A DNA stretch of 64,000 nt from Iphinoe sp. HA4291-MV1 (GTDB lineage: Bacteria; Cyanobacteriota; Cyanobacteriia; Cyanobacteriales; Nostocaceae), in assembly GCA_019359415.1 (NCBI GenBank), contig JAHHHH010000031.1:1-64000 (forward strand), given 5' to 3'. Both the position numbers and the translations under genes were made by a program. The number at the start of each line of letters is the position of its first letter. Position 1 is the first letter of the stretch. Below, piece by piece: positions 21,413 to 24,913 of this stretch. A model generated the notes under the pieces. It saw only the letters and a program-made list of their open reading frames with translations, had not been told where the DNA came from and ran no database searches.

Positions 21413-21934
21413 ATGGTGCAAGATGCCTTTTCTAAAGTTGTTGCCCAGGCTGACTCACGAGGAGAATACCTCAGCGATTCTCAGCTAGATGCTCTAGTCG
21501 GTTTAGTCAAAGATGGTAACAAGCGTGTTGATGTCGTCAACCGGATTTCTAGCAATTCGTCTACCCTTGTTGCCAATGCAGTCCGTTCGTTGTTTGCTGA
21601 GCAACCTCAGTTGATTGCGCCTGGTGGGAATGCTTACACGAGCCGTCGTGCTGCTGCTTGTATACGGGATTTGGAAATCATCCTACGCTATGTGACTTAT
21701 GCGATTTTTGCAGGAGATGCCAGTGTGCTGGATGACCGTGCCCTCAATGGTTTGCGGGAAACCTATCTGGCATTGGGCACTCCTGGAGCTTCAGTTGCTG
21801 TTGGTATTCAGAAGCTGAAGGATGCCTCGATCGCTCTTGCCAATGACCCCAACGGTATTACCCGTGGTGATTGCAGTGCGCTGATTGCAGAAGTTGCAAC
21901 CTATTTTGATCGTGCAGCGGCGGCTGTTGCCTAA
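21413..21934 (+). CDS. cpcB: Phycocyanin beta subunit, sulfur-poor (phycocyanin-3 type)
   Basis: Rod biliprotein of the phycobilisome, 173 residues, normal length. Bilin-binding Cys83 (AACIRD) and Cys154 (GDCSAL) are present. The Asn of PGGNAY, which is methylated in this family, is kept. The only methionine is the initiator and the only cysteines are the two bilin sites. At positions that are Met in ordinary CpcB (NRRMAACLRDMEI) it has Ala and Leu, and the third cysteine of ordinary CpcB (DDRCLNG) is Ala110. This is the hallmark of the sulfur-starvation phycocyanin-3 of Calothrix. AGGAG precedes the ATG. First gene of the operon. Confidence 0.93.
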
Positions 21935-21993
21935 ATCATCATAACTACCATTCAATCAACCCTTTATAGAACAAACTTGGAGATATTAAGTCA

Positions 21994-22485
21994 ATGAGTA
22001 AGACGCCTTTAACGGAAGCGATTGTTGCTGCGGATTCCCAAGGTCGCTTTTTGGGTAGCACTGAAATCCAGGTTGCATTCGGTCGTTTCCGGCAGGCAGC
22101 CGTCAGCTTAGAAGCGGCAAAGACGTTATCTAAAAAAGCGCCCAGTCTGGCTGACGCCGCTGCAAACGCTGTGTATCAGAAGTTCCCTTATACAACTCAG
22201 TTGGATGGGCCAAACTACGCTTCTAGTGCCACCGGTAAGGCAAAATGTGTGCGCGATATAGGCTACTACCTGCGGATTATCACCTACGCTTTGGTTGTAG
22301 GTGGAACGGGTCCGATCGACGATTATTTGATTGGTGGCTTAGCTGAAATCAACCGTACCTTTGAGTTATCTCCTAGCTGGTACATCGAAGCTCTCAAACA
22401 CATCAAGGCGAATCATGGTTTATCGGGCGACCCTGCTGTTGAAGCGAACTCCTACATTGATTATGTGATCAATTCTCTGACCTAG
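21994..22485 (+). CDS. cpcA: Phycocyanin alpha subunit, sulfur-poor (phycocyanin-3 type)
   Basis: Partner of the beta subunit in the rod hexamer, 163 residues, normal length. The bilin site is Cys85 in [12 protein letters not shown]. The sole methionine is the initiator and the sole cysteine is the bilin ligand. Several positions that are Met or Cys in ordinary CpcA are Leu, Ile or Ala here: SLEAAK for [15 protein letters not shown] for LRMVTYCLV, GPIDDYL for GPMDEYL. The spacer from cpcB is 59 bases, and AGAT/GGAG sequence lies upstream. Bilin lyase genes cpcE and cpcF are not in this operon, so another locus must supply them. Confidence 0.93.
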
Positions 22486-22882
22486 CGGGAGTCTTTCAGT
22501 TTTGTGTGATGCGGCAGGAAAATAATTTGGTCATTGTGCAATCCAAACTCATATTGTTACCAAACTATTTTCTGAAACTTCGTACCATAGTTCCACAAAA
22601 CTGAACGTAAAGTTTGCAAATGCGTCGAGCTTTTGCGTAGTAAGCAGCAAAGGCTTCAAATACCGGCATCATTACGTGTTAACTGTCAATTCAAAATGAC
22701 TGAAATACTTATACTGTTGGTGTTTTATAGCTTTTCAATTACTACGCAAAGGTTTTTTTAACAGTTATCAGTTATCAGTCATTAGTCATTGGTCATTAGT
22801 CATTAGTTAGTACTCAAGTGTCAAGAGGATTCTTTTTTTTGAACTTTGAATTTTGAATTTTGAATTGTTAAGAGGTGGGATT
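22486..22882. other. Spacer inside the phycocyanin operon
   Basis: Almost 400 bases separate cpcA from the linker genes, far more than the other spacings in the operon. It contains an STRR array at 22761-22810 (ATTAGTC/TTATCAG units) and then repeats of TTTGAATTTTGAA. A gap here may uncouple the abundant subunits from the scarcer linkers, for example through partial termination or RNA processing. That is inference; I see no classic terminator. Confidence 0.5.
22761..22810. repeat. STRR array in the phycocyanin operon
   Basis: Heptamer-like units AGTTATC and AGTCATT repeat several times, with ATTGGTC variants. The same unit type occurs upstream of the gene at 29960 and near 30700. Confidence 0.7.
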
Positions 22883-23698
22883 ATGACAGCGTTGGGAGAA
22901 GCCAGCCGATTGGGGATTCGCCCGTTTGCAGATACTGAAAAAGTTGAACTGCGCCCTGTGAGGACAGAAGCGGATGTCCAGGCGGTCATTTGGGCGACCT
23001 ATAAACAAGTTTTGGGCAATGAACATTTGATGCAGAGTGAGCGTCTTGAGAGCGCAGAATCACTCTTGCGTCAGGGACAGATTACAGTACGGGATTTTGT
23101 GCGTGCGATCGCTCAATCAGAATTGTATCGGCAGAAGTTCTTCTATTCCAACTCCCAAGTTCGCCTCATCGAACTGAATTATAAGCATCTTTTGGGTCGT
23201 GCTCCCTACGACGAGTCAGAAGTTGCCTACCACGTCGATCTCTACAATTCCCAAGGTTACGAGGCTGATATTAATTCCTACATTGATTCTGTCGAGTATC
23301 AACAAAGCTTTGGGGATGCTATTGTGCCTTACTATCGGGGCTTCCAAACCGTGGTAGGACAAAAAACAGTCGGGTTTCCTCATTTCTTCCAATTGTACCG
23401 AGGCTATGCCAATAGCGATCGCGCTCAAAGCAAGCCCAAAGGACAATTAACTTGGGATCTGGCAAAAAACTTGGTATCCCCCATCTATCCTGCTTCTGCT
23501 GGCACCTTAACTGGCGCTTCAACGGGTCGTCGCGGTGGTAACACCTATCGGATTCGCTTAACGCAGGCGGCTTCCCCTAACTCCACAGTTATCCGGCAAA
23601 GCATTACCGAAGTGATTGTCCCTTTCGAGCAGTTGTCGGATCGGTTGCAACAACTCAATCGCCAAGGACGCAAGGTCATTAATATTACTCTTTCATAA
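22883..23698 (+). CDS. cpcH: Phycocyanin rod linker, sulfur-poor (CpcH type)
   Basis: A rod linker of 271 residues that joins phycocyanin hexamers. It has an N-terminal pfam00427 linker domain (about 20-150) with [19 protein letters not shown] and VPYYRGF, and a C-terminal CpcD-like domain (about 215-271) ending [21 protein letters not shown]. The ATG at 22883 has AGAGGTGG upstream. It contains no cysteine and one internal methionine (EHLMQSERL). With its neighbour it forms the H-I linker pair typical of the cpc2 and cpc3 operons of Calothrix. Confidence 0.9.
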
Positions 23699-23724
23699 AA
23701 GTTTTTAACCAAGGAGACTTTTAG

Positions 23725-24591
23725 ATGGCTATTACAACAGCCGCATCTCGACTCGGAACTTCTGCTTTTAGTAACGCAGCTCCCATAGAATTATGGTCTA
23801 ATGCCAGCCAGACAGATATTTTTGCTGTGATCGCGGCTGTTTATCGTCAGGTCTTAGGCAATGATTATTTACTAAAATCCGAACGTCTGACTGGCGCAGA
23901 ATCTCTGCTGTTGAATGGCTCGATTCCCGTACGGGAGTTTGTCCGTCAGGTGGCGAAATCCCAATTGTATAAAGCTAAGTTTTTCTCCAACAGTTTCCAC
24001 ACCCGTTTCACTGAGTTGAACTACAAACATTTCTTAGGTCGTGCTCCCTATGATGAATCGGAAATAGCCGATCACCTGGACTTGTACCAAACCAAAGGAT
24101 ACGACGCTGACATTGATTCTTATATTGACTCAGCGGAGTACCAAGACAACTTCGGGGAAAATATTGTGCCCTACTATCGGGGATTTACAACTCAACCAGG
24201 ACAAAAAACCGTGGGCTTTACCCGGATTTTTCAACTCTATCGTGGTTATGCGACGAGCGATCGCTCCCAAATTCCAGGAAATTCCCCTCGTCTAGCAAGT
24301 GAACTGGGGAGAAATAGTGCATCAACAGTAGTTGCTCCTGCGCTTAGCAATAATGGCTTTGCTTATCGTCCTCCACTAAGAGGGGAAACCCCCAACAGCA
24401 CATTTGGAGGGTCGCAAGCATTTGGCACAGGACGACTCTATCGAGTGGAAGTGGCAAGTATTTCTAAACGAGGATATCCCCAGGTTCGCCGCGTCAATCA
24501 GGCAGTCGTTATTCCTTACGAACAACTATCAGATTACTTTCAAAGGGTTCAGCGCCAAGGCGGTAAGATTGCCAGTATTACGCCACTTTAG
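23725..24591 (+). CDS. cpcI: Phycocyanin rod linker, sulfur-free (CpcI type)
   Basis: Second rod linker, 288 residues, with the same two-domain plan: pfam00427 domain ([23 protein letters not shown]) and a C-terminal CpcD-like domain ([16 protein letters not shown]). Apart from the initiator it contains neither methionine nor cysteine; the common linker motif NDYIMASERL reads [10 protein letters not shown] here. It lies 26 bases after cpcH with AAGGAG before the start. Different linkers set hexamer position along the rod, so H and I probably occupy different discs. Confidence 0.92.
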
Positions 24592-24615
24592 TTCATAGTT
24601 TATAAAATTTGTCAA

Positions 24616-24630
24616 CCCCCTTTTCGGGGG
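24616..24630. repeat. Small hairpin between cpcI and cpcD
   Basis: CCCCC-TTTTC-GGGGG lies 24 bases after the cpcI stop. There is no T run, so it may act as an mRNA-stability or attenuation element rather than a full terminator. Confidence 0.4.
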
Positions 24631-24664
24631 AATTTAAATTTCCTTTGATTTCCGGGATATCATC

Positions 24665-24913
24665 ATGGTTTATCAAATTGTTAGCGGCAGAAGCAACAAC
24701 TCCATTGCAGCGAATCGGAGTTTCCGGTTTGAAGTGATAGGTCTCCATCAAAATGAAGTTACAGATAAGAACGATTATGCCATTCGCTCCAGTGCCAGTG
24801 TGTTTATTACGGTACCGTTTAGCCGCTTGAATGAAGAACTCCAGCGGATTAATCGACTGGGTGGCAAAATCGTTAGTATTCAACCGTTGGCGCTTGAAAC
24901 TTATGAAGCTTAA
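24665..24913 (+). CDS. cpcD: Rod-capping small linker, sulfur-free
   Basis: An 82-residue CpcD-domain protein that caps the outer end of phycocyanin rods. It has the CpcD pattern FRFEVIGLHQNE and VPFSRLNEELQRINRLGGKIVSI. It contains no cysteine and no methionine other than the initiator. It is the last gene of the operon; no lyase genes follow, and the next gene is convergent. With this gene, the whole rod set of five proteins carries three cysteines, all bilin ligands. Confidence 0.9.
   Translation: MVYQIVSGRSNNSIAANRSFRFEVIGLHQNEVTDKNDYAIRSSASVFITVPFSRLNEELQRINRLGGKIVSIQPLALETYEA

Follow-up and report, generated by a model that had tools for sequence, protein, structure and literature searches.

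A phycocyanin-3-type operon nearly free of methionine and cysteine in the cyanobacterium Iphinoe sp. HA4291-MV1

Few proteins of a cyanobacterium are as abundant as its phycocyanin rods, and a sulfur-free copy of the rod is therefore a large saving. Such a sulfur-sparing paralogue, termed PC-3 (cpcB3A3H3I3D3), was reportedly described from Calothrix/Tolypothrix PCC 7601 by Mazel and Marliere in 1989 and Gutu et al. in 2011. A passage of one later article states that the antenna proteins made by Tolypothrix PCC 7601 under low sulfate are poor in sulfur amino acids (PMC4424289). The other described system close to the present one is the phycocyanin of Nostoc sp. R76DM, the structure of which is available as PDB 6JPR. 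According to passages of the corresponding paper, it was purified from BG11-grown cells; this Met-free Nostoc phycocyanin has its absorption at 611 nm, blue-shifted by about 10 nm relative to others, and its residue changes are ascribed in these passages to helix packing and linker contact, with no link to sulfur being drawn there (PMC6614406). Here we describe an operon in a 64,000-nucleotide stretch of the Iphinoe sp. HA4291-MV1 genome (contig JAHHHH010000031.1, positions 1 to 64,000; hereafter the window). The original prediction had likened this operon to PC-3, an identity supported by its gene content and order, its purge of Met and Cys, its lack of cpcE, the presence of a separate ordinary operon with cpcE and the phylogenetic trees; the comparison with the PCC 7601 genes is one by description, and direct kinship with them is presumed.

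The operon lies on the forward strand and consists of five intact open reading frames in the order B-A-H-I-D, which we take to be the gene order of the PCC 7601 PC-3 operon. It starts with cpcB3 (21413–21934, phycocyanin beta, 173 residues) and cpcA3 (21994–22485, phycocyanin alpha, 163 residues), the products of which exceed the curated cut-offs of TIGR01339 (295.6 bits, cut-off 279.3) and TIGR01338 (294.5 bits, cut-off 269.45), respectively. A 397-nt intergenic stretch (22486–22882), in which short tandem repeats were seen by eye near 22762–22866, separates cpcA3 from cpcH3 (22883–23698, 271 residues); the start of the latter was set at the ATG at 22883, the frame of the ORF tool beginning at TTG 22853. 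Both cpcH3 and cpcI3 (23725–24591, 288 residues) encode rod linkers with PF00427 and PF01383, followed by the rod cap gene cpcD3 (24665–24913, 82 residues; NF058509, 117.4 bits, cut-off 80). The five proteins sum to 977 residues, which corrects the total of 777 given originally. No cpcE was found in the window operon. In some other members of the PC-3 clade, the stretch examined contains cpcBA but no HID.

The near absence of Met and Cys, as originally claimed, was confirmed by counting. The sole internal Met of the five rod proteins is M50 of CpcH3 (0, 0, 1, 0 and 0 in CpcB, A, H, I and D), and the three Cys (2, 1, 0, 0 and 0) align with beta-82, beta-153 and alpha-84 of ordinary subunits, the known bilin-attachment sites, each Cys being a bilin ligand. 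The linkers and the cap are purged too, with one Met and no Cys in 641 residues. Replacement by Leu, Ile or Ala was indeed found across both subunits, but Val also occurs: in the numbering of the ordinary subunits, CpcB carries M30L, M38V, M79A, M86L, C109A, M134L and M157I, and CpcA carries M69L, M94I and C98A. Among 74 CpcB rows with at least five Met, beta 86 and 134 are Met and beta 109 is Cys in all 74, and beta 79 is Met in 73; unlike ordinary phycocyanin, the window CpcB has A, L, L and A at beta 79, 86, 134 and 109. Against the background of the 38 window ORFs of at least 200 residues (368 Met plus Cys in 13672 residues), the binomial probability of four or fewer in 972 residues is 7.7e-8.

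The search for a constitutive cpc operon, suggested with the original prediction, yielded an ordinary operon on contig 112 of the same genome, one of the Brasilonema group; this operon keeps Met and Cys at the usual positions and carries cpcE, the product of which is the only CpcE above the cut-off in the assembly. The two operons share 77% identity in CpcB and 81% in CpcA, whereas CpcH3 is 55% identical to one contig 112 linker and CpcI3 73% to the other. In the four proteins that can be paired, CpcD being without a partner in the ordinary operon, Met plus Cys account for 4 of 891 residues in the window operon, which is without cpcE, versus 22 of 884 in the cpcE-bearing operon of contig 112 (Fisher p = 2.7e-4). 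No free-standing cpcD was found beside the contig 112 operon; cpcD3 encodes the only free-standing CpcD above the cut-off in the assembly, where a second match above the cut-off sits inside a 444-aa frame.

Trees of CpcB plus CpcA were built with the Met and Cys columns removed. In a quick tree of 128 rows, the window falls inside a 35-row clade (SH-aLRT 95), the CpcBA pairs of which have no internal Met in 35 of 35 cases, and three further Met-free rows fall outside this clade. The three bilin Cys are kept in all 30 clade rows examined, a set chosen for lacking Met. In a careful tree of 77 rows, 24 PC-3 rows group together with a moderate, not starred, support of 82/99, and the 29 rows initially called PC-3 form one group in just 24% of 200 bootstrap trees. 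A tree of the two linkers gives a 14-row PC-3 clade that includes the window, with a support of 100/98. The window operon therefore groups with Met-free paralogues rather than with constitutive phycocyanin, the placement that the original prediction had named as speaking against it. PC-3 is present in seven of the eight genomes of the host's genus, in one of them as linkers alone; G003 has PC-3 linkers on contig C395, and G006 is the sole genome of the eight in which PC-3 was not found. Given that the genomic context of PC-3 varies between strains, that its trees mix orders and that one relative lies on a megaplasmid, the operon probably travels as a cassette.

Met-free phycocyanin also arose outside PC-3, partly as the only phycocyanin of a genome. 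The AU test keeps two Met-free lineages out of PC-3, and in four genomes (G013, G070, G071 and G073) an E threshold of 1e-60 returns just one CpcB, which is Met-free. Since some Nostoc have a Met-free phycocyanin as the only one found, the lack of Met alone does not make a phycocyanin inducible. The quick tree put five Nostoc-type rows in the PC-3 clade, as if PC-3 had replaced the ordinary phycocyanin in Nostoc, a reading that we did not adopt; these rows leave the clade in both the careful tree and the linker tree. The latter splits the Nostoc type, with L052, L087 and L092 among ordinary Nostoc operons and L053 with L128 apart. We tentatively favour a separate purging of sulfur over replacement by PC-3 in the Nostoc type; the AU test does not reject a joint clade of PC-3 and Nostoc type (p 0.257). 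Among solved chains, the 6JPR beta chain scores best for CpcB3, and the alpha chain only fifth best for CpcA3. As in the window subunits, the aligned 6JPR chains have no Met, and Cys just at beta 82, beta 153 and alpha 84; beta M79A, M86L, C109A and M134L and alpha C98A are common to both. The 6JPR subunits are nearly identical to those of N. paludosum, the Met-free operon of which, unlike the window operon, carries cpcE; no second phycocyanin was found in that species.

A search of the surroundings out to about 10 kb found sulfate, sulfonate or Cys/Met-synthesis genes at 22 of 35 PC-3 loci, versus none of 44 ordinary cpc loci. An earlier count, without sulfonate genes and with the Nostoc type mixed in, gave 16 of 40 versus 0 of 45 and is superseded. 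In the whole 64-kb window none of the reference sulfur genes was found, and none adjoins the five further Brasilonema-group PC-3 operons counted. The adjoining lipA (19235–20140) was considered as a sulfur link and rejected; it encodes a cofactor enzyme, a scan of 80 loci detected no lipA, and its adjacency was therefore counted as chance. The region upstream of the operon (20740–21412, forward strand) is alignable among six Brasilonema-group PC-3 loci. It contains a -10-like TATAAA at 21112–21117, seen by eye and not listed by a promoter scan, which would give a putative leader of about 290 nt; visual inspection of the regions upstream of ordinary cpc operons showed a similar core promoter-like element. 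No sulfur-specific control site was established. The inverted repeat CGGTA...TACCG, which immediately precedes cpcB in some Calothrix-type PC-3 loci, was rejected as a sulfur operator: its strict matches are also found in loci without PC-3, and none is found in the window. The upstream region shares seven 11-mers (five with overlaps merged; both strands), most of them AT-rich, with a 1570-nt stretch of contig 31 between two sulfate-binding-protein genes, which seems to include some coding sequence; the mean from shuffles that keep base composition only is 0.76. Within 20140–25000, an Rfam search at E up to 1 gave nine matches, all below gathering scores.

We thus consider it very likely that the window operon encodes a sulfur-purged, complete alternative rod, which is made instead of the ordinary rod under sulfur limitation. 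Apart from those required to hold bilin, almost all sulfur amino acids would have been stripped by selection, and the operon encodes a full set of two subunits, two rod linkers and a rod cap. Under sulfur limitation, the cell would make the PC-3 rod in place of the ordinary rod, and a very abundant protein complex would consequently cost almost no sulfur. As the window operon is without cpcE, the lyases encoded by the ordinary operon would attach its chromophores in trans.

The loss of Met and Cys, both of which are oxidisable, might instead provide oxidation resistance or optical tuning in an alternative phycocyanin for another condition, such as light colour or oxidative stress, and the blue-shifted absorption of the Met-free Nostoc phycocyanin would fit such a role. 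This explanation is nevertheless unlikely, given that the linkers bind no bilin yet are purged as well, that sulfur genes accompany many PC-3 loci but none of the ordinary cpc loci counted, and that the precedent in PCC 7601 is one of low sulfate. Less likely still, the operon might supply the strain with its principal, constitutive phycocyanin, a role that Met-free operons seem to play in some Nostoc: four genomes have a single, Met-free CpcB, and cells grown in BG11 yielded the R76DM phycocyanin, which closely resembles that of N. paludosum. However, contig 112 of the present genome carries an ordinary operon that includes cpcE, and the linker tree places the window operon outside the Nostoc group. 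That the operon is a drifting or silent duplicate of accidental composition is scarcely credible, with all five frames open, no internal Met throughout the quick-tree clade, the three bilin Cys retained in the Met-lacking rows examined, and an upstream region alignable in six loci.

Beyond the sulfur-limitation rod of this strain, we think it probable, with less assurance, that PC-3 is an old, horizontally moving sulfur-starvation part, often residing in sulfate/sulfonate-uptake islands, and that other lineages purged their phycocyanin in parallel. The parallel cases would be the genome G035, which belongs to the same family, together with Dendronalium and probably Nostoc. Identical replacements (beta M79A, M86L, M134L/I) would often recur among them, and in some lineages the sulfur-free rod would have been made permanent. 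If so, the unexplained substitutions of 6JPR would be traces of sulfur saving. Few cases show as clearly as PC-3 how the supply of an element shapes protein sequence. Rather than a one-strain curiosity, our survey suggests a trait that recurs in many cyanobacteria, including Microcystis, that in other strains frequently has sulfur-uptake genes as neighbours, and that has more than one origin. This repeated origin amounts to an experiment replicated by nature, from which one may learn where in the protein sulfur can be given up and what the optical price is.

In summary, PC-3 is an already known kind of sulfur-saving antenna, to which the window operon adds one more member. Compared by description, it resembles the PC-3 of PCC 7601 in its Met/Cys-free rods, its operon make-up and the separate ordinary operon of its genome, and differs in that its host belongs to a different genus.

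The plus strand of the window holds five intact genes at 21413–24913, cpcB, cpcA, two rod linkers and a rod cap, which the original prediction had read as a sulfur-sparing phycocyanin-3 (PC-3) operon. This interpretation and the underlying observation were right, except that the five proteins comprise 977 residues and not 777. They contain one internal Met, located in CpcH, and three Cys, which align with the bilin ligands beta-82, beta-153 and alpha-84. Across the four pairable proteins, Met and Cys account for 4 of 891 residues, versus 22 of 884 in this genome's ordinary operon (Fisher p = 2.7e-4). 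The depletion also holds against the window ORFs (binomial P = 7.7e-8), a background of 38 frames of at least 200 residues that includes both linkers and perhaps non-gene frames. The PC-3 identity is upheld by composition, trees and the presence of a separate ordinary operon. Elsewhere in the window, a 243-residue DUF1995 protein (398–1129, minus strand) lacks Cys and, after the start, Met.

The window corresponds to contig 46 of a 7.36-Mb assembly of 140 contigs, in which a genome search gave 14 Phycobilisome-family matches. Among these is an ordinary cpc operon on contig 112 with cpcE downstream; its internal Met/Cys counts are 6/3 in CpcB, 2/2 in CpcA, and 5/1 and 3/0 in the linkers. The matches also include a pair on contig 77, the larger subunit of which is 53% identical to the CpcB of PC-3 (CpcB3) and which is read as phycoerythrin, and a cluster on contig 26, judged from gene order to be allophycocyanin. 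As CpcE passes the cut-off of the genome search only at contig 112, the alpha-84 lyase of PC-3 would have to act in trans in this strain. CpcD passes the cut-off at two places, the window and a 444-residue frame on contig 33, which, judged by its length, is probably a CpcD–FNR fusion; the one free-standing CpcD found in the genome lies in the PC-3 operon.

Columns with Met or Cys in at least two rows were removed before tree building, keeping the trait from drawing the tree. From 130 distinct CpcB rows, two were left out, namely a fragment and a row lacking CpcA. In the resulting 128-row quick tree, the window falls inside a 35-row clade (SH-aLRT 95), all 35 rows of which have no internal Met. 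Three Met-free rows lie outside it, two from genome G035 (its phycocyanin and its phycoerythrocyanin) and one from Dendronalium (locus L145). A careful tree of 77 selected rows unites 24 PC-3 rows (82/99, not starred) and sets apart five Met-free Nostoc-like rows (Nostoc type) as a clade (100/98) of uncertain placement. Of 200 bootstrap trees, 24% join all 29 rows in a single group, and this joint group was not rejected by the AU test (p-AU 0.257). Joining the phycocyanin of G035 or of Dendronalium to the 24 PC-3 rows was rejected (p 0.00037 and 0.0079, respectively), the tested groups having been named after the first tree had been seen. In a linker tree (52 rows having both linkers, 535 columns), the window belongs to a PC-3 clade of 14 rows (100/98). 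Nostoc-type loci L052, L087 and L092 fall within a group of ordinary Nostoc operons (16 rows, 100/99), and L053 and L128 stand together outside these two clades. The window groups with Met-free PC-3 rows, and not with constitutive phycocyanin, in both the CpcBA and the linker trees.

Beta-79 is Ala and beta-86 is Leu in all 30 compared PC-3 rows, which had been picked for lacking Met, as well as in the five Nostoc-type rows, G035 and Dendronalium. Beta-134 is Leu in the PC-3, Nostoc-type and Dendronalium rows and Ile in G035; Cys109 is retained in Dendronalium and one Nostoc-type row. Ordinary rows, defined by five or more Met, have Met at beta-79, beta-86 and beta-134 in 73/74, 74/74 and 74/74 cases, respectively. 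In six partly purged Nostoc rows, beta-79 is Asn, but Met86, Cys109 and Met134 are retained. In G035 (L051, 4922–17564), internal Met is absent from the phycocyanin and phycoerythrocyanin subunits, the phycocyanin rod linker, the cap and four CpcG-type linkers, one of the four checked by Pfam; a 278-residue linker-like frame after the phycoerythrocyanin subunits (6213–7049) has three. At an E of 1e-60 or better, G035 gave one other match, 63% identical and read as phycoerythrocyanin, and genomes G013, G070, G071 and G073 each gave a single, Met-free CpcB. Dendronalium has a second, ordinary copy. Further copies may be hidden in draft assemblies.

Of 389 encoding stretches in named genomes, the scan retained the best 80, so that its counts are lower bounds. 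Among these 80, the closest CpcB proteins are from Brasilonema sp. CT11, B. angustatum, Scytonema tolypothrichoides and Brasilonema UFV-L1. The PC-3 clade includes Calothrix, Nostoc, Fischerella, Microcystis, Stenomitos, Leptolyngbya, Pantanalinema, Elainella and Scytolyngbya, among others. Within the genus, PC-3 was found in seven of eight genomes (six with cpcBA, G003 with linkers only) and not in the draft genome G006. The upstream gene context differs among the five other Brasilonema-group loci, and none of their flanking genes matches a window frame. Kovacikia minuta carries a relative on its 1.2-Mb plasmid pA, with no internal Met and two Cys in CpcB, and none and one in CpcA; cysK lies upstream of it. 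Leptolyngbya-like strains are nested among heterocystous ones in both trees, at positions differing between the trees, and we therefore infer that PC-3 has probably been transferred horizontally. At L076, L077, L079 and L085, ordinary cpcBA and cpcE lie a few kb from PC-3 in opposite orientation.

Open frames around the loci were matched against a set of 14 reference proteins: CysA, CysT, CysW, SbpA, CysK, rhodanese, cystathionine synthase, MetX, MetY, two TauD, two SsuA and SsuB. All except CysW were checked against NCBIfam or Pfam, with rhodanese and TauD resting on Pfam; cystathionine synthase and SsuB reached no specific NCBIfam cut-off among those shown. At least one reference gene lies in the flanks examined, up to about 10 kb away, at 22/35 PC-3 loci versus 0/44 ordinary cpc loci (Fisher 7.5e-11), with references drawn from the PC-3 loci themselves, unequal flank lengths and non-independent loci (four Microcystis, five of Calothrix brevissima type). 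None was found beside the eight other Met-free loci. The C. brevissima type, kin of the window, has SsuA on one side of the operon and SsuB, SsuA and TauD on the other. The reading of PC-3 as a neighbor of sulfur genes is countered by the window operon, five other Brasilonema-group loci and seven further PC-3 loci, beside which no reference gene was found; the search of the whole 64-kb window likewise found none. In this genome, the genes for sulfate permease are on contigs other than that of the window, chiefly contig 31. Some proteins near PC-3 themselves lack internal Met and Cys: a 589-residue SomB-type porin in C. brevissima NIES-22 (L072, 2645–4414), with a 610-residue frame of similar start and no Met or Cys in the same place in L055, and a 360-residue sulfate-binding protein in Microcystis aeruginosa LEGE 91341 (L130, 12387–13469).

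About 650 nt upstream of PC-3 can be aligned across six Brasilonema-group loci, and by eye its core looks like that found upstream of ordinary cpc operons; no sulfur-specific control site was established in the PC-3 upstream regions. A 20-bp inverted repeat (20 pairs) lies upstream of the window operon at 20633–20677. Another, CGGTA...TACCG, lies directly upstream of cpcB in L081 (9853), L091 (9869) and L095 (9930); in L103 (5307), its position suggests that it may precede a gene for a sulfate-binding protein.

Among solved structures, CpcB3 scores best against the beta chain of 6JPR, the phycocyanin of Nostoc sp. R76DM, which ranks fifth for the alpha subunit CpcA3. In their aligned parts, the 6JPR chains are free of Met, have no Cys beyond the three that bind bilin, and are nearly identical to the N. 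paludosum subunits. PMC6614406 lists twelve substitutions for R76DM, including beta Met79Ala, Met86Leu, Cys109Ala and Met134Leu and alpha Cys98Ala (residues mostly numbered 79, 83, 86 and 87 in the text appear as 179, 183, 186 and 187 in the table). According to the paper, N. linckia shares all nine of nine beta changes; the authors ascribe most changes to helix packing and linker contact, leave alpha Ala98 unexplained, and describe culture in BG11. A word search of the main text found no "sulfur" or "methionine", and "sulphur" once, within a species name.

In summary, the added value of this analysis is family-wide, in sulfur-gene neighbors, probable transfer and repeated purging. No cross-genome PC-3 survey was recognized in the literature searched, which is weak evidence of absence, with subscription journals mostly outside its coverage. 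The window operon is a further member of the already known PC-3 kind described from strain PCC 7601. According to PMC4424289, this strain answers low sulfate by making antenna proteins depleted in sulfur amino acids.
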